Shown here piece by piece: positions 1 to 53,404 of a stretch of DNA of 64,000 bases (its first letter is position 1; every line of letters begins with the position of its first letter). The stretch spans positions 47,424,443 to 47,488,442 of the forward strand of contig CP136068.1 in the NCBI GenBank assembly GCA_032622095.1, in the 5' to 3' direction. The notes beneath the pieces are model-generated. The model had not been told where the DNA came from. It saw only the letters and a list, made by a program, of their open reading frames with translations, and made no database searches. The position numbers and the translations under genes are program-made. Origin of the DNA: Siphonodentalium dalli (Eukaryota; Mollusca; Scaphopoda; Gadilida; Siphonodentaliidae).

Positions 1-682
1 TTTTATTTTTTCAATGGTGTTTTTGCTTTTGCTCACTCAAATTTTCGAGAACATCCATTCACTAGTATAGTTCATGGACTCCCACGCTTCCAAAACAAAT
101 GCCGTTATATAGTTGAATATGTCAATGAATCATACGATTTGACAGAATTTAAAAAATCCGTGTCGTTCTCAATATCCGCGCGATATGAAGGGACCACTGT
201 CGGTCCAGAAAGATGCGAACGGCGCAGATGAAGATACGCCAAACGCCGAGTTTCTGTGAAGTAAATATGCGTATTACTTGAGGAGTTCTGATGAGTTTTC
301 GAGTTTTTTTATGTGTATCTGAATTCTGTCAAATCGTATTCTTCATTGACAGATTCAACTATATACCGGCATTTGTTTTGGAAGCGTGGGAGTCCAGGAA
401 CTATACTAGTGAATGGATGTTCTCGAAAATTTGAGTGAACAAAAGCAAAAACACCATTGAAAAAATTCACAAAAAAAATATTTATGGTCTGATCTGGGAA
501 AACTAAATGACAACTAGTGGATAAATACTCCTGCTTCGTGTGGACATACACATATGATGCTCGATGTCTATATTACGATGAGAAACAAACATATCTCCAT
601 ATCATATACGTGAAAATGAGTTTCCCATATTCTCGGTTTTGGCGATACCCTCGGTTTTGGCGATACCACGTTCACGGGGGTG
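1..682. mobile_element. Foldback (TIR-TIR) derivative of the long-TIR transposon
   Basis: Bases 1-320 match the outer part of the TIR of the 13853-21166 element in one orientation, and 321-682 match it in the opposite orientation. The two arms meet head to head with almost no spacer. The right end is CACGGGGGTG at 673-682, the same terminus as the full element. The left end lies outside the window. The spacerless structure suggests internal deletion or a foldback derivative. Confidence 0.8.
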
Positions 683-689
683 TTCATGG

Positions 690-1480
690 ACACAGGATTA
701 TTCCCATCGAAAAACGAATGGAAGAGACTGGTTCGCGAGACAGTCGAAACAAACTATTACTCTTCGTGGTATCGTTCGACTGCGCTCAATGCCGAGCTCT
801 CACTATTCATGCGCTGCCATTCCCATCCCAATCAAACATGGAACATTTGGAATCTGTGCAAATCCCACCGATGCGGGTGCTTGTGGAACAGGCAATTCAT
901 CATTGAGACCCAATAAAACCATGATGCAATATATATACTAAGGAAATGGCCACCTATAAGCCTTTGGCTTACTGCCAAATCCTTTTCTCTAATGTTAAAT
1001 TGTTATCGTCCTTATATTATGTATTATATGTGCTATTCTTGAGAATAAAATATTGTTTACACTAAATCCCACCGATCATTCTCGAAGCCACTGAGACACT
1101 TAGCAAAGCTGCTCAACAAATCAACTTACGAAAATAATCTGACGTGCAGTTTGTGCGTCACGGATTACAACCACGAGTTATACCATGTGTTTTGGTCTTG
1201 CAGGTCGCCACAGTGATACATTTAGTTGATCAGCACTGGGAAATGATACTAAATAAACACGGGATCGATGTGTATCTGTTCCTCGCATCACTCGCACCAA
1301 CATATCTTATGTCAGTTTTCCTCGGAGGTCACATGCCGTCGCTCTCCGAACATATCTACGATGTTTTAGACTTGGTGATCATAGACACAAGTGTATTATT
1401 GCTATATATATGTAATATGATCACAAACACCAATTCGGACCATGTTTTCCAGCGCTGTTCATAAATACACGAACATGTAC
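690..1480 (+). pseudogene. LINE ORF2 C-terminal remnant (zinc knuckle)
   Basis: A plus-strand frame encodes a Trp-rich segment (NEWKRLVRETVETNYYSSWY) and NQTWNIWNLCKSHRCG. After a break, TCSLCVTDYNHELYHVFWSC follows at about 1122-1190. The C-x2-C-x(n)-H-x4-C spacing matches the C-terminal knuckle of non-LTR retrotransposon ORF2 proteins. Another frame shift near 1210 leads into a hydrophobic tail to 1462. An AATAAA near 1620 could be its polyadenylation signal. The foldback element at 1-682 abuts its upstream side. No RT core is present. Confidence 0.5.
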
Positions 1481-1674
1481 TCTTGTGTGTGTCAGATTGC
1501 TATATAAATGGTTCTGATAATGCATGGACTATCACAGAAATCGTGTTACCAATCTGGTTAAACTGTATATTTATATATGTATTATAACTCATGTAAATAT
1601 CTACTCTCACACGAGGAGGCAATAAAGATATATATACCCCGGTAGAAAAATGAAGCCATGCTCAATTTATTAAA

Positions 1675-1860
1675 CAGTTCGGGTCCCACCGCACCTGACC
1701 GCACCGACCGCACCGTCCCGAGGGGTCCAATTAGACCCCGAAGCCGCCATCACACGCCGCCGCCGCCTGCCATATTGGCCACAAGCGCCGCCAGCCATAT
1801 TATCTCTGCGCCAGCCACATAAACAAATCTCCGCCGCCGGAATTATCAAATGGCTGAGCC
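1675..1860. other. Short GC-rich island
   Basis: This stretch is GC-rich in an otherwise AT-rich region, with repeated GCCGCC and several (G/A)CCATATT motifs resembling YY1-type sites. It lies about 2.4 kb upstream of the transporter start codon. It could be a distal promoter or CpG element, or an unrelated repeat. No transcription start is visible. The following 1860-3600 shows no gene that I can support. Confidence 0.3.
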
Positions 1861-3684
1861 GCAGGCATTGGCTTATATGTCAAGCACAACTTCACTGTGA
1901 ATCGCAAAGAACTAAACCACATTGCCCATATTGGTATATATATTCGCAAGGACTCGGCATGGTTGTTATATTATCCGAATACCCGCGGGCCTCTCAATGT
2001 GGAATAGACTATTCCAATGAATGCTTTCATATATAACTGAATGGGAGAATCCATTCATTATTGAAAGGATTAAAGTATAAATTGTTAATTTCGACACGAC
2101 TCGGTCTCAAACATACCTGGAATTTCTCAATATATGCACATAACCTGTAGAAGAGAATAGAAAATAGTTCGAAATATTATATTATTTGGGCCTATACTGT
2201 CGGATTCAACATTCGATGATGCGTGCATATATCGCCAGTGATGATATAGCAGTCTGAAGTGGACAAAACTTCCAATGTAACTAATACCGATTAGATGGGA
2301 AACTACATAGTACACCCATGCCAGTCCTTCGTGTATTTTTGCCATATTGGACAAGCCCAACACCAACAAGAGCACAATTGGTCTGTGATTCTACGGGTTC
2401 ACCATAAACGCTAAAACAAACGGGGTCTATAACCGGGGATTAGGAAAATTTAGTAAACGAAAATACGCCGATTGATAACGTCTCAGCCGGCTGAGCCGCC
2501 ATATTTCGTCAGCCACGAACGTTGTGACTGAGCCAGCTTAGCTAGCTAACCAGCCACGAAATTGGTTGAGCCAGCCTCGATACCGATTTGTCGTGGCTTC
2601 GGTGTCTAGGTCCGATCAAGATGGTTTGGCACCATCGTGCATAATAGACCAGTATGTACAAAAGGTCCAATCTCCAAAATCGATATATCAAGCGGAAACG
2701 GTGCGGTTAACCCATAACTTTCGGCCGATTCCGCCAGGTACGCAAAATAAAACAAATGGCACAGTCCGCACCTCTCCTAGTTGTCTGACCACGGAAGGGA
2801 CATCATATTATGGAGCGAATACCCCTCTGCATCCATGGCCGATCGGGAAAATTGCTAGCTATACCAGAAGTGAGTATATTAACCCATACGTTACATAATT
2901 TCGATGACTAAACTTTAGAAAAAGCAATGTGTCATGTTAATGTTCAACTAAGTTAACGCAATACATACTTTTGGGGGCCAATCGCGCATTATTTCGTTTG
3001 CTATTCGGGAATTTCAATGAATACAAATGGCGCATCAGTTGCTCGGGACCCGTACACCGTGACGAACTTGTATTTCTATGAATTCATTGCATCTTTCTGT
3101 GATATACAATGTTTGTAGAAATCTATTCCAGGTATTTTAACTACCTATTTCAATATCGGGAATAACTCAGAAAAGCGAATATTATTATACGCATTTTGGA
3201 ATGCAAGTCGCCATGTGGTTTTAACTTTCATTTGCCTGAACGCATAACTATTTTACGTGATAGTCTGGCGAAGCGATATCCTACACACATGTAACATACA
3301 TTAAGGTTTCCTGTAACGGGTACACGAAGAACAACTCGTTATAATTACTGCATTATGGGGAGTGGTACACGATCAATGTGACTATAAATAACATGGGAAC
3401 CATCAATGGGAATTAATGACAACTAAACTGTTTCCTATCCGGTATGTACTGTATCGCCGTCATCCTTGGTCTGTGCTGCAGAGTTACCAACAAGCTATAT
3501 CGCCGATGATAGAGAAGCGTGTGGGGTGAATTTGTTAGCCACCTTTGTGAACGTGGAATGATTTGTTGCCGTTAAACTGTCCTGCGCTGTGAACCTGAGT
3601 TCTCATTCATTGTGTCTTCCCTCCCAATCAAAGTGCGGTGCACACGGAATATAAGAGCAGGAATTAGTGGGGAACGTATTGTGG

Positions 3685-3900
3685 TATACAATTAATTCGA
3701 CCGGGCGACGTCTGTGTGCATAAGGAATATATGAACAATAATTAGCACAAAAATCTAGTTACATACAATTATTCGGTCGAGTGCCGATTCTGCATGTGCC
3801 AAAGAATTCTATGAAACAAATCAGTTGATAACAGATTAGTACAATAATTCGGTAGAGAACGGATAGTATAGTTCAATTATTCGGTCCGTTGCCGAATTTG
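3685..3900 (+). repeat. Degenerate ATTCGGT-type repeats upstream of the transporter
   Basis: Several variants of AATTATTCGGTCGAGTGCCG occur at about 3688, 3768, 3845 and 3873, spaced roughly 30-80 bases. Two of them carry a partial inverted mate (CGGT...GCCGAAT). They are the only repeated short motif I see just upstream of exon 1. A regulatory role is only a guess. Confidence 0.4.
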
Positions 3901-4064
3901 TACATACCACCTTGAAAAGATTTAAATTAATTTTGGCAAAGGCCTTGTGCTTATTCAAATGGTATTCATTGAAAATTATCCATTATTATAAGTATACGAC
4001 TACGAATGAAGGGTTCGTTGAAGGGTTCGTGTACGTAACGGTCTAATACTGTTATCTGGGAAGA

Positions 4065-4118
4065 CAAGTGCGCGGCTATAGTCAAGTGCGCGGTTATAGT
4101 CAAGTGCGCTGTTATAGT
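4065..4118 (+). repeat. Three tandem 18-bp units upstream of the start codon
   Basis: CAAGTGCGCGGTTATAGT occurs three times head to tail with one or two changes per copy. It ends 34 bases before the ATG at 4153, so it probably lies in the 5' leader of the transporter mRNA. Because 18 is a multiple of 3, copy-number change keeps frame. The transcription start is not visible. Confidence 0.85.
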
Positions 4119-4152
4119 GGCCTGTTCTGATAGAGCGTTGTATTCAGAACCA

Positions 4153-4423
4153 ATGGGTACCAAGCTGGAGACATGTAATTCTATAATGGACATGGAGTCG
4201 GAATCGGATAGAACTAGTGATGATTCAGCGGTGTCCGGTTCCTCCCCGGATGGAGGCTGGGGATGGTTCGTGTGTTTTGGTTCGTTTGCCATGATTTTTA
4301 TCCTGGATGGTACGATATGGTCGTGTGGTGTTTTACTGATCGAATTGCTGGACCATTTTGGAGAAACAAAAACGAAAACGTCAATGGTTGGTTCCTGCTA
4401 TGTCGGCATGAGCATGGTATTCG
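4153..4423 (+). CDS. Monocarboxylate transporter (SLC16 family), first coding exon
   Basis: This exon encodes the N-terminus of an SLC16-type, 12-helix plasma-membrane transporter of the major facilitator superfamily. The ATG at 4153 starts an acidic, Ser-rich cytosolic tail. The family signature DGGWGW follows at about residues 31-36, then TM1 (FVCFGSFAMIFILDGTIWSC) and the start of TM2. The ELLDHFGETKTKTS stretch between them matches orphan MCTs better than the MCT1-4 lactate carriers (family knowledge). The exon ends in ATGGTATTCG before a GTAGGT donor at 4424, in phase 1, and joins the 27276 exon to give VFG-PIV. In-frame ATGs at 4186 and 4192 are alternative starts, and 4186 has A at -3 and G at +4. 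The substrate cannot be assigned from this half of the protein. Confidence 0.9.
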
Positions 4424-5605
4424 GTAGGTTTGCATTCACCTAGACTTATTTTGTATTTGCTGTGGACTTATATGTATGGGTATGTAAAGGGGATGCACAG
4501 TGGAACTTAGTTAAACGACAACTCCATCATAGTCACTATCGTTCCATATATGGCAATTGAACTTGCCCCTTCTACAATTCTTTACAGTTATCTTACAAAC
4601 AGATTACTCAAATTAATTACGCGATTCCCACTTTGCGTCGAGACAATCCCTTCGAATATTGTTAATGGTCCATGTATGTCCTAAAATTGTCAGTTGGTGG
4701 GTCCAGAACAATAACTATAACATATCACACAAATATAAATAAAACAGGCCGGCATGTTGACGGAGGTAACATGCGGTTCGTGGCTTCACGCGACACAAAT
4801 ACGTCACAAATAGGTCACGTGGTGTCAGGTCAATAAGCCAAAGACTTGCTCGATTGGCTAATTCACGATTCACTTTAATTACGCGCGCCGCGTGTATACT
4901 AATATGGAGATTCCTGTTCCGCCTGGGCGCGGGGGGTTTTATTTATAGAAATTGGAATTTTTGGGACGGATTTAAAAGTCGAACTGCGACCATGAGGCCG
5001 AATCCGGTAAAAGGTGTAGTTTTGTTGGTGATTTTTGGGTTGTGACAAGCTACGTCAATTACAAATAATAGAAATGAAAAAGATAATTTGTATGTCTTAT
5101 ATTTCAACTTGTATAGGCATTTTTCGTTCTGCAGCCCACTGAGGGTTCGTTAATTAGGTGCTGCATGGTTGTTATTGTTATTTTAACGGAATTCTGAGTT
5201 GGTCATTCGCGAAACCAATATATTTTGTATTCTATAATTACAATCATGGGTATATACTATATGATCTTGAGCGCGTTACCATTTCTTACATTGGTTTTCT
5301 TGTATTGTGTTGTTGTTTGGTAATCGGGGCACACACTCACATACGACTCGTGTTAAATTTGGGTAATCCCCAGGTTATTCGGGTCTATAGCAAAGATTAA
5401 ACAAAAAATGCAAATTTTATGATACAAATTTAGTTTTTGTAGACATATTTTATTAAGTAGCTCTGTTCGCATACCGCGTTTGAAAATATAGTAAACGATA
5501 TAGGCACCATCTTATAGAACACAAACAATTCTGAAATATAATTATTACGCGTTCCAATACTTTCTTGATGTGCATAGGAAACCTTATACCATATGTAGTT
5601 TAGTT

Positions 5606-8600
5606 TAAACATATTTTATTGCCATATAATATATACATGTATATATACATACAACAATTGGGAGTGGGATACAAGTGCCGACACTTAGATTTGTCCCGTT
5701 CCCAGATAAACAAACAGGGGTTAGAGAGGCACCGACCGAATCGACAAGGCAAATATACATATATTGTTAATGTATTTATAATTTGTATACTATGTTAGAG
5801 CGGGTTGAACAACGACGGGGCGTTGTATGCAGGACAATAATCTGCAATGTCATATAGTATATCTTTGGTATATAAATTCAGTGAGATCTTGGTTACTGGT
5901 TACTGAGGGGCGGGCGTGATAAGTACTGGATTAATGGTCTGATGTGTGGTGGGAGTTGTGGCCAGGTCTGGCGGTGCCTCACTAAACAAAGTATAAAGCG
6001 GCCAACAAACAAAAATATATTTGTTTTCAGTTAGTGCAACAAAGAAAATGGTATATTGGGTAACTCCCATACATGTATGTAATTTTGTTTTGTATTATGT
6101 TTTATAATAAGTAAGAAGTTTTGTAGTAAGACTGATCCAAGTCCACTGGATAAGAACATTTCAGTATTATCGCGGTCACTAATTATGGGGTTTCCTATTA
6201 CTAGGTTTTCAAGGGTTATATTACCAAATTGTATCAAATTATCGAATAGTTCCTGTCTTATTTGTGTATAATGAACACATTCAAAGAAGTAGTGATAAGC
6301 ATCTTCGATTGGGCTATCACACGCACACGATGGAGATAAAGCTATATAGTTATTTAATTTGTCGAGATTAAGATCGCTACAGCAGCATCTTATTCTACAA
6401 TGAAGAATGTTCAGTGTACGTTTACCTGTATTATAGTACCTTGGCGGTCTTGGCATTTTCACCTCAATAGCATTTTTAAAAGGGTCAGTTTTTAAACACC
6501 TCTGCTCGGGTTTTAATTGATTCCACTCGTTAACACAGGACGGGAAAAATGTTGCGCGGAAACTGGGTGCCGCTCGAAAGGGAATAAAGTTGGTACCGTT
6601 CCTCAAGTTATAATCTGTTGAATCTTCTACTTTCTGTGGTAAGGCTTTTAGTAAATAATTTTGGGCGTTTCCGGTTGCGATTTTATGAAACAGTGTCATT
6701 TTTTTGACGTGTCGGCGTTCAGATAGTGTTTGCCAACCCACTTCTGAGAGTAGGCGAACGTTGGGTATGGACCTTGTACAACCAGAAACTATTCGTGCGG
6801 CATCACACTGTAAGTTTTCCAATTTTGTGAGGTGAATATCGGCGGCACACGCCCAGACGGGGCTTGCATATTCTAGGATCGGTCTAATAAACGAGAAGTA
6901 CATAATCTCTAGAGTGTGGCGATTTAATATTTTCTTTAATTTCCGTAACTGTGATAATCGGGATGATGCTTTCTTGTATATTGATAGTATGTGTATATCC
7001 CATTTGAAATTAACTTGTAATTCGACGCCTAAATGTTGGTGTGTTTGGCCAAAGCTCACCGGTGTCCCAGCAAAATCAAGGCAAGGGTGTTGATTGTTTG
7101 CTCGGCTGAATAGGAGGGCGTTTGTTTTATCCGGATTGAAATTCACTAGCCACCTAGCGGCCCAGTCATGAAGGGAGTTTAAATCACAATTGAGATTTGT
7201 TTCGATATCTTCAGTAATAAGTGCGGTTTGCATTATACACGTGTCATCGGCGAACAGGCGCGTGACCGAAGTAATGGTATCGGCTATGTCATTGATGTAT
7301 TTAAAAAAATAGAGTAGGGCCGATAACTGACCCTTGAGGGACACCGGCACCAATTGTTTTGTATGACGACAAGTCATTGTTAACCCTAACTATCTGCATA
7401 CGGATATGGAGATAACTACCGAACCACTTTAATAAGCTGCCAGAAATGCCATAGCGTTCAAGTTTCAGGAGTAGGCCGCGATGCCAAACTTTGTCAAACG
7501 CCTTTGAGACATCACAAAAAACGCCACAGGTTGTCAGACCATCATCCGCCGCTTGCGATAATTTGTGATATATTTCTAATAGCTGTAATTCGGTACTATG
7601 TCCAGGTAAGAAGCCAGATTGGTATTCATACAAGAGACTGTTGTCGTGCAAATGACTAAAGACCTTTTTAAATATGATTTTTTCGAAAACTTTGGCTATA
7701 CAACATAACAGGGAAATGGGTCTATAGTTATTTGCATATTTTTTGTAAATTGGAATAACATCGGCTTTTTTCCATTCAGACGGGAAGATAAACGAGTTAA
7801 GTGACTGGTTAAAAATTATCTTTAGTGGTTTACACACGGTAAATTTGGTTTCACGCAGCATCCGGTTACTTATTTCATCATGGCCAGTAGCTTTTCCAGA
7901 TGGCAAGGCTTTCAGTATGGTTTGGATTTCAGACTCACTGGTAGTTAATGAGCTCAGTGTTTTCTTAGTTCTGAATCCGAAAGTAGGCAATTCGCCTGGT
8001 AAATTCGATATAAGACTATTTTTCATGAATGTTTCGTTAATAAATTCTGCTTTCTTGAGGTCATCTTCGATGACATCCCCCGAGTCTAACAGGTCTGGTA
8101 TGCTGGTATCCGAGTTGAAATTGTTAAAAAATTGTTTGGTGATTTTCCAGAAATTTTTTGAGTTTTTTTCCAATGTCAGGGAACAGTCAATCTTTTCCAT
8201 GAACGTGGCCTTTGCAAATTTTTTCATATTATTTGCTTTATTTCGGGCGCGCTTATAAATGTCCCAATGGTGGGGTGTATTTTTGTTTATGGCAATTTTT
8301 CTTAGGCGATCACGCTTTCTTATCTGAGTTCGCAATTTGGAGTCAAACCATGGTTTGTCATCTGTCCCAATTGTCGCCATGTGATTAGGTATGCATGTTT
8401 TAGCTATGGAAAGGAAACTGTTAGTGAACTTCCCAACCATGTTGTTTACACAAGGTATGTCGTCGTCACCACGGAGGTGACTTGGCCAATCAGTGTTTCT
8501 GATAATATTATTCATTTTCACAAAGTTCGCTTTGTTATAATTCCAGACACATTTTTTTGGTAGGTTTATTCGACACACGTTGCGCGATGGTCTGACACAC

Positions 8601-9690
8601 CGGGCTCAAGTGTTGAGGGAATAAGCGCCGATACGGTATCAGAGATGATAATCGGATCAATCAGCGTGCGCGTTGTACCGTCTATGCGCGTCGGTCCGTC
8701 GATGACATTTTTTAGTGTTAGCTCGTCCATGATATCCTGCAGTGAACCGGTCGGTTTAAGGAGGTCACAATTCAAGTCACCGACTACGTCAATAGAGGGG
8801 TTTAGCGATAATGCTTGGTGTAGTGAAGACAACAGATATGCCCAGTAGTTAGCTAGGCATTCGCGGTCCGATCTATACGTTACACATAATAGGAATTTGT
8901 CTCGGGCATTTACTTCGAACCATAGCACATCATCATCAAAATGAAGCTCAGGAAGGGGCCGATAGGAAACCTTGTTTGAAAAATACACCGCGACACCACC
9001 CTTTTCTCTATTTTGTCGTGCCGGATGGGCAATGACAAGTTTGGAGGTGTGTCTCAGTGAAACATAATACATCATATTCTTCAATAATGTGCATGATACT
9101 TTCAAGCTTGTGTCGAATGCTCCGAATATTGTAGTGAAAAATAGATATTGTTTGTAAGTCTTTTGGTCATGGGTTTAAATGGACGTTGCCTGATATCAGT
9201 AGCAATAGAGATAACGTGAGGGCGGATACCATGACATGTCTCAAGTTATAGTGTGTTATCCTTAAGCCACATCGTGTACGACACACGTTTATTTTCGGTA
9301 ATCTATGGCGGCCGCTGTTCAAGCAATTGTAGAATTTGCCAACTGCCTCTCTATGCATTGTTATTTCAGCTACCATGGGCTATTACACTGATAAAACGTT
9401 TGTACTCTCTGGCAGTGGCTAGTATTTGGGTAATGTCAGTATTCTCATCAGTTAGACATGGATCAGTCGCAGATACATAGTGTAAGTTTGGTAAAGTATT
9501 CATAAGTGCACAAAACAAGCATACAAAATTCAATGGAATGATTTGGGATTCAGGCGAGGGCATATCTTCGTATATGGTACTTGGGATGGGTGGTTTTAAT
9601 TGAATGGGGGACCCGCTACTCTTGGGTGTGAATGGGGGGGGGTGATTGTTGTAGTTAAAATCATTCAGCCGATGACATTGGCAAGCCATG
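5606..9690 (-). mobile_element. Decayed non-LTR retrotransposon (LINE), minus strand
   Basis: The element carries an ORF2 with endonuclease, reverse transcriptase and C-terminal zinc knuckle. The 3' end is placed near 5606 because AAACATATTTTATT there also begins the 3' end of the related copy at 43940. The 5' limit is uncertain. A frame at 9689-9366 may be leader or ORF2 N-terminus. No clear target duplication was found. The interval 9690-10555 holds no recognisable domain. Confidence 0.7.
6031..9376 (-). pseudogene. LINE ORF2: endonuclease / reverse transcriptase, broken
   Basis: This is the ORF2 polyprotein of a CR1/L2/Jockey-like LINE, used for target-primed reverse transcription. From the N-terminus there is a hydrophobic run ending GNVHLNP (about 9190-9170), resembling a 2A-like or GDxxxNPGP leader, stopped by TGA. 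The APE endonuclease follows (HYNIRSIRHKLE, TETHL, then GGVAVYFSN, GDLNCDL, VSDHRAT to 8566). The RT comes next (NYRPISLLCCIAKVFEKI, DVSKAFDKVWHRG, GVPQGSVIGP at about 7330, FADD near 7240). A C-terminal knuckle follows (CACDSPIEDAYHYFFECVHY, about 6310-6260). Breaks are the stop at about 9167, shifts near 9020 and 8570, and one extra base in the 7-A run at 7303-7309. The RT catalytic FADD is intact. Confidence 0.88.
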
Positions 9691-13852: not shown

Positions 13853-15485
13853 CACCCCCGTGTACGTGGTACCGCCAAAACCGAGGGTATCGCCAAAACC
13901 GAGAATATGGGAAAGTCATTTTCACGTATATGATATGGGGATATGTTTGTTTCTCATCGTAATACAGACATCGAGCATCGTATGTGTATGTCCACACGAA
14001 GCAGGAGTATTTGTCCACTAGTTGTCATTTAGTTTTCCCAGATCAGACCATTAATTTTCTTTTGGCGAATTTTTTAAATGGTGTTTTTGCTTTTGGTAAC
14101 TCAAATTTTCGAGAACATTCATTCACTAGTATAGTTCCTGGACTCCCACGCTTCCATAACAAATGCCGGTATATAGTTGAATCTGTCAATGAAGCATACG
14201 ATTTGACAGAATTTAAAAAATCCCTGTCGTTCTCAATATCCGCGCGATATGAAGGGACCACTGTCGTCCAGAAAGATGCGAACGGCACAGATGAAGATGC
14301 GCCAAACGCCGAGTTTCTGTGCAGTTAATATGCGTATTACTTAAAGGGGTACTGTACGCTATTTTCATTAAATTTCCGGTGACAACAACGATCTAATATC
14401 GATAATATATAGAAACATAAGTAATTTGAGTCGAAGATGTATTCTGTAAACGCTCAGGTTAATAGGCTATCTTAAAATTTAATAATTTAAAAGTTAATAA
14501 TTTGATATAAATTGAATTTATGACTGGAGCCATAAAATGGCGTCAATTAAATTACGAATTACCGTAATCAAAAAGAGTAATTGAGGGTTACTGGATTGTT
14601 AAACCGATCGCACACACGATCGCTTAAAATATTATGATGATACGGGGAGAACACTCAAGCCACTCACTGACTAGCGACGATACAATAACTTAAATGATTA
14701 TATGGGACTAGTATGCATATAATATAACTTTTATTTGATTCATTTGATTGAAAACTTTACAAAAATTACTCGACAACGACAATTTGTATTTTTGCATTCC
14801 GGTAAATTTGTCATCCGTAACATGACTTCGTACTCAACAGACTTTCATATAATGGAAAAATTGTTACCTTATTCTCCGACTCGGAGACTATAGAAACCAA
14901 CAACACCATTTGGCGTACAGTACCCCTTTAAGGAGTTCTGATGAGTTTTCGAGTGTTTTTATGTGTATCTGAGACTGATAAATTGGACTGCGAATGTCAT
15001 CTGAAATATCAATCCATAACATATTCGAAATATTGTGTGCATATATATTATGAATGTGTTTCAATTGAAATTAATTGAACATTCATCTCAGCATTCAGAT
15101 TTGCGATCTCAAGAACGTGAATGAATGATAACGCGATACCTTGATCACACGCACGTGAATGCTGCCGTTTCGCATGCATGCAGCTAATCGGTTATTTGTT
15201 TAGTATTAACATGCTTGGAGTTTGTATATAGACCACACATGCCAGACGACACGCTACGGTGTATCAACGATTTGTCATAATCATGTTTATTTTAAAGACT
15301 TTAAATTATGACTCGTTCCCAATCGAGTAGAACGTTACGCGACAATGAAACCGAATCATCTTATTGAATATACATATATATATCGTATTGCTCCAAATTA
15401 TGCAATTCTGGCTTTTTTGAGAGTCATCAGATAAAACTGTAACGATTCTATGTTAACACACTAAACATTCGAACATATATGTACA
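13853..15485 (+). repeat. Left terminal inverted repeat (interrupted by a MITE)
   Basis: It pairs with 20141-21166. It is interrupted by the TTAA element at 14345-14927, which the right arm lacks. It contains a frame of about 110 codons (13984-14328), repeated in the right arm and at 1-551, that reads NGVFAF, SNFREH and FTSIVPGLPRF and then NKCRYIVES. The frame has no good ATG and differs between copies by small indels. Confidence 0.88.
14345..14927. mobile_element. TTAA-flanked MITE (583 bp)
   Basis: The termini are AGGGGTACTGTACGC and GCGTACAGTACCCCT, flanked by TTAA on both sides (14341-14344, 14928-14931). The empty site exists in the other TIR arm at 20665-20668, which proves the boundaries. 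TTAA duplication is the mark of piggyBac- or Kolobok-type mobilisation. It has no coding capacity. Confidence 0.95.
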
Positions 15486-16249
15486 CACACACAACAAAGT
15501 TACTGCTATTTATAATAAACACTTCACTTTGGAACATGTGTATACTGCCATGATTGTTATGTGCACATGTAAATTGCACTATAGTTTATAACTTTTCTAA
15601 TTTAGCCCTAGGACCACATATTTAGCGGGCATAATATTTACACAAGACTTCATTATGTTATCGTATAGGTTGCATATACTGTAATTGATATGTATGTTTA
15701 ACCGAAATGAATCTTATCTCCGTCCTGAGTTTGGTTTATGGTTCTAACCAAAATTGTTATGGATGTTCAGCGTCAAGTCGCATCTGACTTTCCCTAACGC
15801 TTCGTCTATGGGCACAATTTCTAATGGCGCATCTGATTCAGACATGGTATTTCATAATACTAAATTCGAGATGCCACAAAATATCCGCGCAACACACAAG
15901 GGACCGGACGAATTGACTGATTAAGGGATCAATTATAATTTTATTATGATTTTATGCGGACTGGCTGTTTTTGCTTTGTTCACAGACAGAGATAATTGTT
16001 GTGATTATAGCTCCACTCGTGCAAACTTTCACGAGGCCCGATGATGAGTATAACGTGTCATTCATCATAAATTTATTTGTCTTCGGGGAGAGTATTTGTT
16101 TTGTTGGGGCGGAGTCTTAACCTCTGTCAAACCATTCAACAGCAAAAAATGGACACCATAGCACATGGTGGCAGTCAGGCGAGCAATTTCCAATGATAAT
16201 TCTTATACAAAACATCACAGGAAAAAAAGATAAATATGTATACGTGCTC

Positions 16250-18550
16250 TATTAGTCCAGTGCATTTATGGTTTCACCTCAAAATAATTGCAACACAAAG
16301 TTTCTCAGTGGGAATAAGTACTTTAACCCATCACAAATAATATACTAAAAATCAACAAGAATCAAGAAATGCGAAATTGATGAATTTTGTGAAATAAATT
16401 TGTCAAAATTTTGTAAAATACTCATTTTATAGCTTTTTAAGGATGTTTATAAAAAACTTCCTTTCACATGTCCTTCCATTTATATATCCATTTTGTAGAG
16501 TGCACAACCCTGATTACAGAACAGAAAACCTTTCCTAGATACGTTCAGTATTTTTTCAGTTATGTGCCTCCAAAATTTGGAGTTTGTCTAATTTCGGAGG
16601 CTCAATTTCTCAAAATTAGTTAAAATCCATTTTTTATGGTCTTGTATTTAAAAAAATAAAGGGATTCCTTGTTGTTTTAGTCATTTCCTGTCTCGGTTGT
16701 GCACACAATATGATTTCTTTATGCATCTATGGTTGAGAGGACGAAAATATTCTTAAACAAAATGTGTGTTCCACCATTGTATGGACAGCCAAATTTGCCT
16801 GTGGTCCAGAACCGGCGTGATGAAATAGTATATTTGATGTCATACAAATCAATAATTATATATCCATATTCCCTGTCTTTCTCATAATCACTTAAGTATA
16901 CATCGTTAAACACATTGTATTAAAGGAATTTCCCAAATCATGGTGTAGAAAATCTAATTATGGCCCTATGAATCTTTAGAATTGACTCATCTAAAAATGC
17001 CATTTTGGGGCGTTTTTTGTTCATTTTTAAAGGTTTTTGTGTATAAATTGTAAAAACAATGTATGTTTAATTTGCAAAATCATTTGAACTTTCCTCCTGA
17101 AACACTTTAGTGTTGAAATAAATGCCTTATGTTGGATATGTCAATGAATGTCACTGAATTTCAAACAAAATTCTGGAAACTGATGCCAAATTTGAATATC
17201 TGAAAAAATATTGACAAAATCTAGAAAATATGGACCTTGATGCATAAAACTTTAACATCACCAGCTCCTACAAACCCTATTATTTCACACAGAGTAAACT
17301 GCTTCCTGTTTTGATGTTCATATTTAAAGCTACTATCCTTTTTGTTGTAACTCAATGGCGAAATGGCGAATCATTATTTCGGGCTGGTTCTATATAACAT
17401 GCTGATAAAGTTCTAAATAAACATCTAATACTTATTAAAGTACTAAACTGTTTACTATGCAATAATAATCTGCACAAACTGGAATAAAACAACCCTTTGT
17501 CTCCAATGACTAGAATATGGTGACAAGATCATAGCCATAGTGATTTCACCTACCCCATTATAAACATTCAAATTTGGAGTCAGTTTCTTGAAAAATATGT
17601 GAAATCCAGTGACTGTTGATTGGCATAACCAATGTAATCATATTTTTTCCAACAGTTAGTGTTTTAGGAGTAACGTTCAAATGATTTTACACATTAAACA
17701 CTAATTGTATTCAATGTTGTTTACTATTTGTGCACCAAAAAAATGGACAAAACAACCACAAAACAGTCCAAAATGGCATTTTTGGAAAAGAGTCAATACA
17801 AAGGATTCATAGGGCCATAAGTTGATTATGGCACATATATGTTTAGCAATTCCAGCACAGTGTATTTAACCTAGTATACTTAAGAGGTTATGAGAAATAC
17901 AGGGCATATGGATATCAATTTATTGAGTTGTGTGACCTCAAATATGTTATTTTATCACACCAGTTCTGTGTCACAAGGCAAATTTGGCTAAGTCCATACA
18001 ATGGAACACACATTTTGTTTAAGAATATTTTTGTCTTCTCGATCATAGATGCATAAAGAAATCATGTTTTGTGCACAATATAGTGAGGCAACTAATACAA
18101 CAGTGAGATATCCCTTCATTGTTTTCTAGTTTTTAAAATACTAGGCCCTAAAATATGGATTTTAGCTAATTCTTCATAAATTGAGGCTCCGAAATTAGAC
18201 AAACTCCCAATTTTGGAGGCACATAACTCGAAAAATTCTCAACGTATCTGGAAAATGTTTTCTGTTCTGTAATCAGGATTGTGTACTCAACTCAACAATG
18301 GATATATAAATGGAAGGACATGTGAAATGAAGTTTTTTATAAACATCCTTGAAAAGCTATAAAATGGGTATTTTACAAAATTTTACTAAATTTATTTCAC
18401 AAAATTTATCAATTTCACCTTTCTTGATCCTTTTTGATTTTTTGTATGTTGTTTATAATTGGTTAATAGTCTTATTCCTGCTAAGAAACATTGTCTTGCA
18501 ATTAGTTTGATGTTTGGCACTTTATTCCCATAGATGCACTGAACTAATAG
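16250..18550. repeat. Long inverted repeat (arms of about 0.8 kb)
   Basis: 16250-17040 pairs with 17735-18550, with a spacer of about 0.7 kb. Clear anchors are CTTCCATTTATATATCCATT versus AATGGATATATAAATGGAAG and GATTACAGAACAGAAAAC versus TTTTCTGTTCTGTAATC. Divergence is roughly 10-15% by eye. It could be a separate foldback insertion within the CXC element. Confidence 0.85.
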
Positions 18551-19844
18551 GCACAAACATCCTTATGAACATGGGAGCGAAAGATGTTATGAGGTATGTA
18601 TACAAGCGAACATCCCAAGCAATACTAATGAGTGCTCCGTCTCTCAAGATCGACAACGACGTTGTACATATCGACCCACAACTCTTGTTTCAGATGCTTA
18701 TCACTGTTGCCAAAGCGCCGACCAGAGGTGATGTAACCTGCTGTGTCAGACTTTTAGGTAGAAAAGGATTTCATTTACATACACTATCACCAGGTGCAGT
18801 GTTGGAAGGGGCTTAATTTGGAACCAACTGATTGGGGATGGCAGGTTAAGGATAGGCGGCTTAGTCCTATCAAATGTGAGGAACCACCGGCTCCAAAAGA
18901 ACTACTGAACATCATTCGTTGTAAATGTAAAACGGACTGCAAAAGCAATAGGTGCACATGCCGAAAACATGGAATTATGTGTTCTATGTCTTGTGGGGAA
19001 TGCCAAGGTGTTGACTGTTCGAACACACAGCCTTTCGACAGCAGTGAAATGGAGGCCTAGACTGAAAATCAGAACGATCTATCCAGACTTATTATTTTTT
19101 CAAAATTCTATATTTTTTTAATGAATTTCTAAAAAAATTCTCTTTTTTCACTATTTTGCCACAAGATATGGACAACTTAGTGTCATTGATACCACAACCT
19201 GGCCCAAAATTATTTGATGGAAAATCCCATATATAACTGACTGACAACAGTCCAAGTCCAACTATGGCAATTTCTAATGCATAAACATGTAATGTGAAAT
19301 TCCATTTTTCTCTGATTTCTTGTCATTTTTACCTCTTTTCACCCTAAAATATTTTGATTATTTGCTCGTAGTAACAACATGAAGAAAACCCACAATTGTG
19401 GATATAACTATATAACAATAGTTCCATGCCCAGTTATGACAATTTTACAACTGCATCAAGAGTTATTGCAGACTTCCAGTTTTCACTGAATTTTGGCAAA
19501 TGTTTCAACTTTTTGACCCAAATTTCGAAAATTTAATCAATATTTTTAGAATAAAATGATACAAAATCTTGGATACAACTGTACCACAGTTTATCCTTGT
19601 GAAAATATAACAATTGTATGTTTACATCAAGAGTTATTAACAACAAATTTTAACCTCCATTTTTCACCAATTTTTCATCATTTTCGCCACTTTTTGCCTC
19701 AAAAAGGCCATTTCGCATGTTCAGATTTTTGTTGATTTTTAGCTGAGTATACTCTATGATGCTCCCAACCAAAATAAAACAAAAACTTTTGTGTTGCAAT
19801 TATTTTGAGGTTCAGCCCTATTTTCTCATAAATGCACTGGACTA
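16253..19844. mobile_element. TIR element carrying a CXC-domain gene, nested in the long-TIR transposon
   Basis: The ends are TAGTCCAGTGCATTTATG at 16253 and its complement CATAAATGCACTGGACTA ending at 19844, with TAT on both flanks (16250-16252, 19845-19847). A TA duplication is also possible. Inside, the left arm (16250 to about 17040) recurs inverted at about 17735-18550, ending CACTGAACTAATA. The element therefore has three copies of its terminal sequence. The broken CXC gene lies between the second and third. Confidence 0.65.
18553..19060 (+). pseudogene. CXC (tesmin/TSO1-like) domain protein, frameshifted
   Basis: Two overlapping frames. The first (18553-18816) reads GTNILMNMGAKDVMRYVYKR and IDPQLLFQMLITVAK, with no recognised domain. 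The second (open to 19060) reads VQCWKGLNLEPTDWGWQVKD, PAPKELLNIIRCKC, and then a cysteine array C-x-C-x3-C-x4-C-x-C-x6-C-x3-C-x2-C-x4-C-x-N at about 18922-19020. This is a single CXC zinc-binding domain. The combination of a W-x-G / DWGW box, PAPxxLL and CXC occurs in multicopy uncharacterised proteins of marine invertebrates (recalled, not searched). The break near 18795 and the lack of a convincing ATG argue for a remnant or a last exon. A stop at 19058 ends it. Confidence 0.7.
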
Positions 19845-19962
19845 TATCCGCGAACATACTAGGCTACATCCGAAGACCACATGTTCTGTCTTTTAGTCGG
19901 CTAATTCATCCACTCGGTTATAGGGACGTGACAGTGGTGTGTTGGTGTAACATAACACTTCC

Positions 19963-20010: not shown

Positions 20011-20140
20011 TCTGGTTTGAGTTTGTAAACATGGTGTTATAGGTTGGTAAGCTGACTACATGTGCTACATAGACACAATACAGAGGCCCATCGACATCCA
20101 GATAAGAAGGCACACACGTGTGACACACATTGTGATGATA

Positions 20141-21166
20141 CATGTACGAATGTTTAAGGTTAACATAGAATCGTTACAATATTATCTGATGACTCTTAAA
20201 AAGCCAGAATTGCATAATTTGGAGCAATACGATATATGCATATTCGATAAGATGATTCGGTGTCATTGTCGCGGAACGGTCTACTCGAGTGGGAACGAGT
20301 CATAAAGTCTGTAAAATAAACATGATTATAACAAATCGTTGATACGCCGTAGCGTGTCGTCCGGCATGTGTGGTCTATATACAAACTCCAAGCATGTTAA
20401 TACTAAACGAATATCCGATTAGATGCATGCATGCAAACGGCAGCATTCACGTGCGTGTGATCAAGGTATCGCGCTATCATTCATTCACGTTCTTGAGATC
20501 GCAAATCTGAATGCTGAGATGGATGTTCAATTAATTTCAATTGAAACAGATTCATAATATATATGCACACAATATTTCGAATATGTTATGGATTCATATT
20601 CAGATGACATTCGCAGTCCAATTGATCAGTCTCAGATACACATAAAAACACGCATCAGAACTCCTTAAGTAATACACATATTTACTGCCCAGAAACTCGG
20701 CGTTTGGTCGCATCTTCATCTGTGCCGTTCGCATCTTTCTGGACCGACAGTGATCCCTTCATATCGCGCGGATATTGATAACGACAAGGATTTTTTAAAT
20801 TCTGTCAAATCGTATGCTTCATTGACAGATTCAACTATATACCGGCATTTGTTTTGGAAGCGAGGGAGTCCAGGAACTATACTAGTGAATGGATGTTCTC
20901 GAAAATTTGAGTGAGCAAAAGCAAAAACACCATTGAAAAAATTCGCCAAAACAAAATTAATGGTCTGATCTGGGAAAACTATATGACAACTAGTGGATAA
21001 ATACTCCTGCTTCGTGTGGACATGTGGACATACACATACGATGCTCGATATCTGTATTACGAAGAGAAACAAACATATCCCCATATCATATACGTGAAAA
21101 TGACTTTCCCATATTCTCGGTTTTGGCGATACCCTCGGTTTTGGCGATACCACGTACACGGGGGTG
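20141..21166 (-). repeat. Right terminal inverted repeat
   Basis: This is the reverse complement of the left TIR. It has an uninterrupted TTAA at 20665-20668 where the left arm carries the nested MITE. The conserved open frame runs on the minus strand from about 21159 to 20716. Confidence 0.88.
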
Positions 21167-21346
21167 GTAAAGCGATGACTAATATCTCAATGGTTCTAAC
21201 ATAGAAATTCAAGAGTATAATATTATTTATATCTCTCCCACCCCTGCAAATGTTAACACAGGCAGCCCGTGTGATAGTTTTCTGTTTCATATCCAACGTA
21301 ACTGCTGCCTCACCCCACACACGAGCCTGATTTTCATACTAAAACA

Positions 21347-48557: not shown

Positions 48558-49345
48558 AAAGAGAAGTATATCAATTGTATCCCAAGCATGCTCTATAGGA
48601 GTGGGATCCGGTGATGCCGCTGGCCAGACCATCCGCTCGAATCCTTCCTCCTGAATGTATCGGTTTACAAGTATGGCACGGTTTGGTTGGCGTTGTCGTC
48701 CATCAGTACGAAATCTTCGACGACAGCACCCGCAAACTGCCGCACGATTGGGTTCAGAATGTCATCCCGGTAACGCTGTGCGTTTAGGGTGCCGTTCTGG
48801 ATGACGTCCGTATTCAACCCACCCCACACCATAACCGATCCGCCACCATAGCGGTCATGTTCCCTCGCTGTAGCATCCGTGAATCTCTCATTTCGCCTCC
48901 TCTAAACCAAAACACGTCTGTCGAGGAAATATAGACATAACCTAGACTCATCTGTGAACAGCATGGTCGACCACTGCTGTACTGTCCAGTTCACATGTTC
49001 TGTGCTCCACTGTACCATGTGTTGCCTGCGTCGTGGTCGCAAAATAACACGGACTGCGGCTCTCCTGGCACGTAACCCAGCAGCGTGAAGTCTATCGCGG
49101 ATGGTCTGCGTCGCAATTCTGACCTCAGCCGCATTTTTGAGGTTCCGTTGCAGGGATGTGGCATTCACGGTGCGGGTCCAAGTCGTTGTTATCCTCAGAT
49201 AACGGTCTTGGCGTCCAGTCGTGATCCGCTGACGACCCCCACCGTGTCTTCTGTTTGCACTACCATGTGTGTTGTAGCGAGACAACGCTCTGGCTGACAC
49301 CTAGGTCTGTAGCAAACCTGCATCTGTGATCTTCCAGATTGGAGC
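48558..49345 (-). pseudogene. Tc1-like transposase, broken
   Basis: This is a DDE transposase of the Tc1/mariner superfamily, which cuts and pastes DNA at TA sites. The minus-strand frame reads DLGVSQSVVS (helix-turn-helix start, about 49320), then RQRITTGRQDRYLRI and IRDRLHAAGLRARRAAVR. The first catalytic D lies in LFTDESR (about 48950). WGG follows at about 48815, then LMDDNA (second D, about 48690) and PDPTPIEHAWD (E, about 48595). The D-to-E spacing is about 34-35 residues. Breaks: a shift near 49300, an in-frame TAG near 48901 and a shift near 48670. The TIRs were not located. Confidence 0.85.
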
Positions 49346-51292: not shown

Positions 51293-51451
51293 ACAATATT
51301 TACATTGACTTTGTAATCCTGTGCATTCTCCTAATTGAGCGTGCTCCCTACTTTGATAAGTAATACTATGCACTGACACGTGATCTTTAATGCTGCATAA
51401 GCGCAGCTTCCTTCACGGAAGGGTTAATCTATGTGTCTATTTTTTTTACAG

Positions 51452-52249
51452 GAATTGGTTGCAGTATGATGTTTGTCACGGCATGCGTTGTGGTTGGGAT
51501 GTATTTCAATAAAAAACGAGCTATTGCCACGGGAATAGCTATGAGCGGATCCGGGATAGGAATTTTCTTCTACTCATATTTCGTGGAGAAGCTGAGCGAG
51601 ATTTACGATTGGAGGGGGTGTATTCTGATTCTCTCGGCACTCATCGCCAACTGCATCGTGTTCGGCGCCATATTGCGCCCACTGAGGTCCCCGAAAACGC
51701 GGAAGCAGAAAGGGAACGAAAACACGTGCGCACATACACCCCTTCTCAAGCAGGCGATGATTGTTCAAGAAACTTCCTCTCTAGGTGGCGATTCTACGGA
51801 CATCACTGTGAACGGCATTAATTCCTCGGCGAAGAAACCTTTGATAAATTTTAAGGAACCTAACGGGGTTCATGATAATCATTTGAGTATGAGTCATGAC
51901 AACGTCAATCGACCAAGATTTCGGTTACCGGAAATTAGGATTTCACAGAGTCATACGGCTCTGCACGAAGAACAGACAGAAGGTCCCGTTGCTAGGCAAC
52001 GGAGCGGAACCAACCCTACATTCCTTAATCCGATCCTTCGAAAAGATGTGTTCTATAGTGGCAGCATTATGAATCTCCCTGAATTTCAGTCTTCTAGAAA
52101 TCTCGAAGAGTATGTGAAGGCGGTGACTACAAAGGAGACGGGACAGGAGAAACGGACGCTTTGTGCCGATCTCAAATTGGTGTTCGATTTCTCGCTGATG
52201 AGGAATCCTATCTTTCTCCTGCTCCTCGTGTCGTTCGTTCTCTGGACAG
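51452..52249 (+). CDS. Monocarboxylate transporter, third coding exon (TM4-TM7)
   Basis: This 798-bp exon is in phase 1 at both ends, with a pyrimidine-rich acceptor (TTTTTTTACAG) and a GTGAGT donor at 52250. It begins GIGCSMMFVTACVVVGMYFN (TM4). The second SLC16 signature follows as YFNKKRAIATGIAMSGSGIG (TM5 entry), then FFYSYFVEKLSEIYDWRGC and TM6 (ILILSALIANCIVFGAILRP). A hydrophilic cytosolic loop of roughly 160 residues, rich in Ser, Lys and Arg, comes next. The exon ends in TM7 after FDFSLMRNPIFLLLLVSFVL. The long TM6-TM7 loop is typical of the MCT family. The TM8 residues that define proton coupling in MCT1-4 lie past the window. Confidence 0.92.
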
Positions 52250-53404
52250 GTGAGTTATTTTAGTAACCGATTTAACAGTTCTGCCACGTCCAACATTAAC
52301 TTAACTACTATATATTTAACTAGTTACAGCCACATCCAAAGTTCCAGACTTCCAATTACAACAACTTCGTAACAATATAATACATGTGTGGGTGTAAATA
52401 TATAACAATATAAGTTGACATCATGTTCTGATTTGTTCTGTTGCAAGATGGTAAAAACTTAATATGACATATAAATTAGACATATGCAGTGTATATACAA
52501 TATCAGTGTTGTTATTGGAACAAGTAAAAATGTAACTTGTAGACTATGTCTATGATTATTTATTCATAACTCATTCATATAATATATACAATTATCTACA
52601 CAGTGTTGTATTATACTATCCAATAAGCTATCGGGGACAGCATAGCCGAGAGGGCTGTCTACCTTCCGTCCCCGTTGAACAGTAATATAACTATACATGT
52701 AATAATAATTTGATTTTATCTAGGGTTTGTCTTGTTAACTCTAAACATTGGTAAATAAACGTCTGTTTTTTTATAAATAATAGTAGAACTCATTGGTCGT
52801 TCACCGTTCATCGCCCAGTTTGTGATGTGATATATAAAGTAAAAACATGTGGAGTATGAATATGTGGATGAGGCCAGCGAAGAACCATGATAATTGTTTA
52901 TCCAATGGGTCGAATAAGGCAGTAAATAAGGCATTCGAATAAGGCATTCGAATAATACATTCTAGGGTTTCCTGCGATGGGGAGATGATGAGCATGTATT
53001 ATGTATCGTTCTCTCTTATTATACAATGTCAGTTATCGCTACACGAATACTATACTACTTATTACACATCGTTGCCATCAGGACAATGTTTGTAAAAGTC
53101 ATCACGTGATATACATGTAGATAATAAACCGTTCATAGGGAGTGACCTCATCAAATGCGTGGGTAGACCCCTCCATTACGGTACTGCATAACATCTAGGT
53201 CATGCACGTGACAACAGATTATGCTAATTAGACCGAAACTGGGGTACTGCGGTACAAATAGGTCATGCACGTGACATCAGATTATGTAAATTAGCCCCCA
53301 ACTGGGGTACTGCAGAGAAAGTAGGTCATGTACTTCCTTGACGTCACCATATGCAAATTAGCACCCCAAACGCGCGGGATATCATCACTTGTTGTCAGCA
53401 GAAG

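Follow-up and report, generated by a model that had tools for sequence, protein, structure and literature searches.

The locus

The region of interest in the window (the whole 64-kb stretch of DNA that was analysed) is bounded by inverted copies of an 18-bp sequence, TAGTCCAGTGCATTTATG. The two outer copies are exact, a third inside the region carries two mismatches, and the trinucleotide TAT stands directly outside each outer copy (Table 1). Three matches to the 18-bp end occur in the window against 0.10 expected, and none of 100 shuffles reached three or more. The sequence-only reading of this DNA had pointed to these inverted ends with their TAT flanks, and to a broken gene for a CXC protein between them; both observations hold. 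The CXC-bearing frame extends from 18758 to 19060 on the forward strand, and the open-frame listing places a DWGW box and a PAPKELL (PAPxxLL) box ahead of its cysteines. The break is evident from the abrupt start of this frame and from a homologous upstream part that is read in a different frame. Pfam TCR matches the frame at E=0.061 (14.1 bits, below the cut-off of 23.5), comparably to the unrelated DUF5983 (E=0.046, below cut-off as well).

The left part of the region is a foldback. Its two arms, at about 16244-17197 and 17566-18554, are about 950 bp each and 79% identical, with some 370 bp between them, and the longest stop-to-stop frame lying wholly inside 16253-18546 is 69 aa, so that it holds no gene of its own. 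Among the regions read elsewhere in the genome there are 15 stand-alone foldbacks of 2277-2306 bp, about 70% identical to this one and each flanked by a 3-bp duplication. Very long inverted arms, no gene and duplications around stand-alone relatives are thus all found for this segment, and the inverted internal arm noted earlier is its right-hand end. A related locus, L010, has an internally repetitive stretch (1300-4750) within its foldback copy.

The right part is what remains of a larger element, represented elsewhere in the genome by a parent-type copy (L051) and by a complete copy (L049) whose predicted protein is called P0001. From 18785 to 19844 the window is 92% identical to L051 6863-7913, as far as the right end of L051. 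Directly to the right of the foldback, 18547-18717 aligns to P0001 in another frame than the CXC piece does. Between the two parts about 1.04 kb of L051 (5819-6862), coding for a nuclease region, is absent from the window copy, and the first 5 kb or so of the element is missing too.

Table 1. Features of the three-ended unit, in window coordinates
Feature	Position	Strand	Remarks
Left target-site duplication, TAT	16250-16252		Identical to 19845-19847
Left terminal inverted repeat, also the outer end of the foldback	16253-16270	+	Like the ends of L049, L050 and L051
Foldback, non-autonomous relative, 2294 bp	16253-18546		15 stand-alone relatives with 3-bp duplications
Internal end (right end of the foldback)	18529-18546	-	2 mismatches in the window; exact in L026, L031 and L035
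Predicted transposase gene, fragment 1	18547-18718	+	L051 5647-5818 at 88%; P0001 residues 1028-1084
66 unmatched bases at the internal loss	18719-18784	+	Comparison with L051
Predicted transposase C-terminus	18785-19060	+	66% identical to P0001 residues 1442-1530
DWGW box	~18830-18841	+
PAPKELL box	~18887-18907	+
CXC cysteines	~18920-19018	+
Stop codon	19058-19060	+
3' non-coding stretch of the parent element, including its right end	19061-19844	+	L051 comparison
Right terminal inverted repeat	19827-19844	-	Exact TAGTCCAGTGCATTTATG match
Right target-site duplication, TAT	19845-19847		Identical to 16250-16252

Distribution of the ends in the genome

The genome searched comprises 2.23 Gb in 9 contigs and contains exact matches to TAGTCCAGTGCATTTATG at 955 sites on the forward and 959 on the reverse strand; a reversed-sequence control gave 0. 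Twenty plus 20 regions, all on contig C1, were picked from 100 of the 1914 end sites, two of these 40 being halves of one element, and further regions were added later. Pairs were scored with ends at up to 2 mismatches, and a duplication was counted when the 3 bp directly outside the ends were identical. By this measure 35 of 40 units are duplicated, made up of 5 of 7 chimeras (the window included) and 30 of 33 other pairs, where chance would match 3 bp in roughly 1 case in 64 at even base use and somewhat more often in A+T-rich DNA; five short-element pairs, at L022, L023 and L025, have common flanks and are hence non-independent. The units lacking a matching duplication are L013, L040, L051, L009 and L035. 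Loci with one end each (L042, L044, L045, L046 and L048) and L026, which is cut by the edge of its region, are not counted.

The short same-end elements at L022, L023 and L025 occupy an identical site in a repeated flanking unit, with TTT or AAA duplications in one orientation or the other, and may thus be carried along by a larger repeat. Most end copies among the regions read contain no gene.

Complete elements and their protein

The window's 100-aa CXC frame has at least 150 matches in the genome, 2703 first-look candidates having been found and 150 of them scored. One of these falls inside a 1532-aa open frame at locus L049, which proved to be a complete element of 7303 bp (594-7896 of its region) with the same kind of ends, one mismatch at the left and none at the right, and flanks GTA/GTA. 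The stop-to-stop frame (2348-6946) takes up 4.6 of the 7.3 kb, and its C-terminus is 66% identical to the window CXC frame over 90 residues. In order, P0001 comprises a conserved core, a FEN/XPG-like nuclease, a DWGW box, a PAPxxLL box and the CXC array. L050, a further copy with flanks AGT/AGT, is 94.5% identical to L049.

Searched against its own genome, P0001 gave at least 47 match rows (31 scored of 5764 candidates), and those beyond its near copies are 36-49% identical, in open frames mostly of 1043-1585 aa. The matches span the CXC array to residue 1523 or beyond in 24 of the 47 rows and end inside it or at its start in three more (residues 1513, 1495 and 1488); the others come from partial copies or represent the 5' portions of split ones. 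Judged from these alignments, the CXC piece in the window forms the C-terminal end of the transposase that the element itself is predicted to encode. Exact peptide patterns, which would detect close relatives only, confirmed no relatives in IMG/VR or GTDB contigs, and none were confirmed in phages.

Domains of the predicted transposase

Four full-length proteins (P0001, L052, L053 and L068) were compared, the last three from the further families described below. The core is conserved among them, with many invariant residues including TFDQPLW and DLxIEQVLMRSIKS, and is predicted to be a DDE transposase core. A core profile gave two weak, unrelated matches in PDB (E=0.51 and 9.3). No Pfam model scores above cut-off in any of the four, NCBIfam has no match to P0001, and the Pfam matches at E<=1 in the four proteins include neither a helicase nor TCR. 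DUF6589 is matched below cut-off in P0001 (15 bits against 27) and is absent from L052, L053 and L068; other sub-threshold matches are to DUF3545 (L052) and to LacAB_rpiB or Mog1 (L053 and L068). These are taken for chance, with DUF6589 perhaps an exception. A limited literature search on DUF6589 found nothing.

The case for the nuclease comes from a set of acidic residues and a profile comparison. D1146, D1185, D1256, D1258, D1280, D1282 and D1342 are invariant in five aligned sequences, and their order presumably corresponds to that of FEN-type 5' nucleases. Set against the aligned sequences of E. coli YgdG, PolA 1-323 and phage T5 D15, the nuclease profile gave an hhalign E of 5e-5 and a score of 43, with a moderate probability of 68%; the match covers 184 columns and keeps the motifs in register. 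As controls, seven unrelated single proteins scored no higher than 19.3, and 20 column-shuffled profiles no higher than 22. Against single FENs the region scored 28.0 with YgdG and 30.1 with PolA, the latter over just 23 columns, and T5 D15 alone scored 13.3, within the control range. Neither a sequence search of PDB with P0001 nor a profile search with the nuclease region returned a relative.

Origin of the three-ended unit

The foldback might be thought to have landed here with a target duplication of its own, an interpretation that was rejected: the TAT at 16250-16252 and the ATA at 18547-18549 are not a direct repeat. Because these flanks differ, the outer TAT/TAT pair marks the unit that moved to this site. 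The same ATA is found at the position of the foldback/CXC join in L051, and the ATA at 18547-18549 is likely to be the target duplication of the foldback. L051 itself (650-7913 of its region) has no matching duplication and a frame broken in several places, and it reads through the join, its coding sequence continuing upstream.

One and the same join is common to seven loci (the window, L009, L011, L012, L026, L031 and L035). Since L051 reads through the join and the seven loci keep it, a single insertion of a foldback into the transposase gene, followed by spread of the resulting unit, would account for them all. Both outer ends were read in six of these copies. Four of the six are flanked by duplications of their own (TAT in the window, and AAC, GCA and TAA), which L009 and L035 lack. 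A related chimera, L010 (CTA/CTA), no longer has the join. On the comparison of these copies, the three-ended form is best described as a nested insertion that was re-mobilised. The sequence-only reading had singled out three ends as unusual; three ends are indeed present, and a foldback relative lodged in the transposase gene would explain them.

The steps can be sketched as follows. A foldback mobilised by the same transposase would have inserted into the transposase gene, after which the enzyme may have paired the outer end of the foldback with the right end of the parent, or two left ends may have recombined; the three-ended unit so formed would then have spread. In such an enzyme the DDE core would cut and join the element ends, the FEN-like domain would trim flaps or hairpins, and DNA binding might be aided by the CXC array, perhaps at a common subterminal motif like ACCCGGAAAAAATTGCA. 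By eye, such a motif lies no more than about 50 bp from the tips in each of the four families read.

The recombination route, a homologous exchange between the left end of the parent and that of the foldback in place of transposition from an alternative end, is feasible in that the first 168 bp of the foldback are 80% identical to the left end of L051. The two routes leave sequences that look alike here, and we consider recombination possible, at somewhat below even odds. Whichever route founded the unit, the duplications around four of the six join copies indicate that it then moved as a whole. Taken together, the window unit is read, with a probability of roughly 80%, as a decayed copy, with an internal deletion, of a cut-and-paste DNA transposon functioning in the manner of AcademX.

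Related families and relation to known transposons

The same type of gene occurs in two further families with other ends. Family C (L052, L069 and the end stretches L054-L061) has ends beginning TAGTACA, and family D (L053, L068 and L062-L067) has ends beginning TAGTCTGG. All five copies of family C that were read at both ends have a 3-bp duplication (AAT, CAT, TAT, ACA and TAT), a sixth copy showing a single end; in family D two of three copies read at both ends do (TAG and TAG), L053 does not, and two more copies show a single end. Inner inverted repeats of 119 bp in family C and 100 bp in family D were considered as termini and rejected by copy comparison, the true ends lying farther out. 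In each of the four families read the ends have TAGT tips, and the domain layout of the L049 protein recurs in proteins just 35-45% identical to it.

AcademX is a lineage that Kojima reportedly placed, in 2020, within the Academ superfamily of DNA transposons. Its nuclease is of XPG type, as against the helicase of AcademH, and DUF6589 is linked to the Academ core domain. Target duplications are given as 3 or 4 bp for AcademX and 9 or 10 bp for AcademH, a difference seemingly tied to the nuclease and helicase that they encode (PMC10045372). Both AcademX features are present here: the 3-bp duplication in the window family (35/40) and in families C (5/5) and D (2/3), and a FEN/XPG-like region with no helicase in the four proteins scanned. 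As in AcademX as described there, the nuclease is encoded together with the transposase. Sizes are also similar, the elements here measuring 5.9-7.3 kb and the Academ elements reported as amplified in bivalves averaging 5565 bp (PMC10294476). Possible differences lie in the DWGW-PAPxxLL-CXC tail and the TAGT tips, Academ having been compared by its published description. The element very probably belongs to AcademX, with a core that may be homologous to that of Academ transposases, and the families most likely are new members of a known superfamily. The earlier suggestion of an undescribed transposon is therefore borne out as to the transposon and doubtful as to "undescribed", the nuclease and the 3-bp duplications fitting AcademX. 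A limited literature search on the XPG-type Academ nuclease found nothing.

A separate superfamily, resembling Academ by coincidence in its FEN-type nuclease and 3-bp duplications, would be in keeping with curated models that stay below cut-off throughout, DUF6589 included, which was matched in P0001 alone of the four proteins. It is nevertheless unlikely, since the nuclease and the duplications of 3-4 bp are the two features that mark AcademX (PMC10045372) and both are present.

We think it similarly improbable that the elements form a transposon group of their own, in which a DNA-joining core, a FEN-type flap nuclease and a CXC tail are joined in one protein and foldbacks dock onto coding copies to give spreading three-ended units whose internal end is still usable. 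The window unit itself has parallels. The foldback elements Tetris and Galileo are described as having very long, palindromic inverted arms, as does the 2.3-kb non-autonomous foldback here; unlike those elements as described, the present one has ends and 3-bp duplications belonging to a family of CXC-tailed transposons. In KolobokP an end-bearing element flanking another likewise makes a larger unit that moves whole, but there long terminal direct repeats stand at both termini, whereas here there is one foldback on one flank only (PMC9587614).

The CACTA/EnSpm (CMC) group was rejected as a relative. Its ends begin CACTA or CACTG, and those of the four families read start with TAGT.

The CXC tail

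Regulators of the LIN54/tesmin/TSO1 type have a CXC-type cysteine array in two copies. The array here is alike in type but single, it stands at the end of a predicted transposase, and its match to TCR is below cut-off. Identity with such a regulator was rejected on that score (14.1 bits against 23.5) and on the lack of any TCR match in the four full-length proteins. A limited search for literature joining CXC domain, transposon, tesmin and terminal inverted repeats found none, and we do not claim the CXC tail as unreported.

The sequence-only reading had offered the CXC gene as possible cargo of a mobile element, and had asked whether intact CXC genes are flanked repeatedly by this very end with a short duplication, and whether full copies hold a further transposase-like domain upstream. 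In L049 the gene does travel in an element with inverted ends and a short duplication, and a large conserved stretch does precede the CXC tail. Intact genes are repeatedly so flanked, but not always by this end: CXC genes lacking it exist, with the different TAGT-tipped ends of families C and D, and the end family, gene-less in most copies read, does carry the gene in L049. The other ends of families C and D, with the mostly gene-less copies, tie the gene to the transposon group and not to this particular end. Capture of a host CXC gene as cargo, with the transposase elsewhere, would suit the window taken alone, where a CXC frame stands without any transposase, and the many gene-less copies, but it is highly improbable and was rejected in the main on L049 and families C and D, the array lying in frame at the end of the single long frame of L049 and, with the same layout, in its distant relatives, and many genome matches to P0001 running through it.

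The array is instead best read as the C-terminal tail of the element's long protein. Multicopy CXC-bearing proteins, at least one group of them in an animal genome, would then be transposase tails in the families read, and it would be wrong to number them among host CXC regulators or to take them for expanded gene families. One open frame unites the CXC tail and a FEN-like nuclease with a transposon, in proteins that Pfam models leave below cut-off, and a foldback inside its own parent is seen, in the copies compared, to yield a three-ended unit.

Neighbouring sequences in the window

A second inverted repeat brackets the element, with 13853-14354 and 14928-15480 matching 20656-21166 and 20138-20668, respectively, at 91-94% identity. 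Similar short frames lie at 13963-14328 on the forward strand and 20716-21186 on the reverse strand.

An exon of an MFS transporter is found at 51391-52263 (Pfam MFS_1, E=4.3e-16), and an upstream frame, perhaps 4039-4443, contains a GGWGW-like stretch that has no Pfam match and that we take to resemble the first exon of a monocarboxylate transporter. With a transporter-like first exon upstream and the MFS exon downstream, the element may sit within a large transporter intron. Two other kinds of mobile DNA are present, both on the reverse strand: a LINE-like retrotransposon in three overlapping frames at 6031-9174 (RVT_1, E=2.6e-22, with an endonuclease-like match below cut-off) and a fragment of a Tc1/mariner-type transposase at 48902-49300 (HTH_Tnp_Tc3_2, E=2.5e-11).
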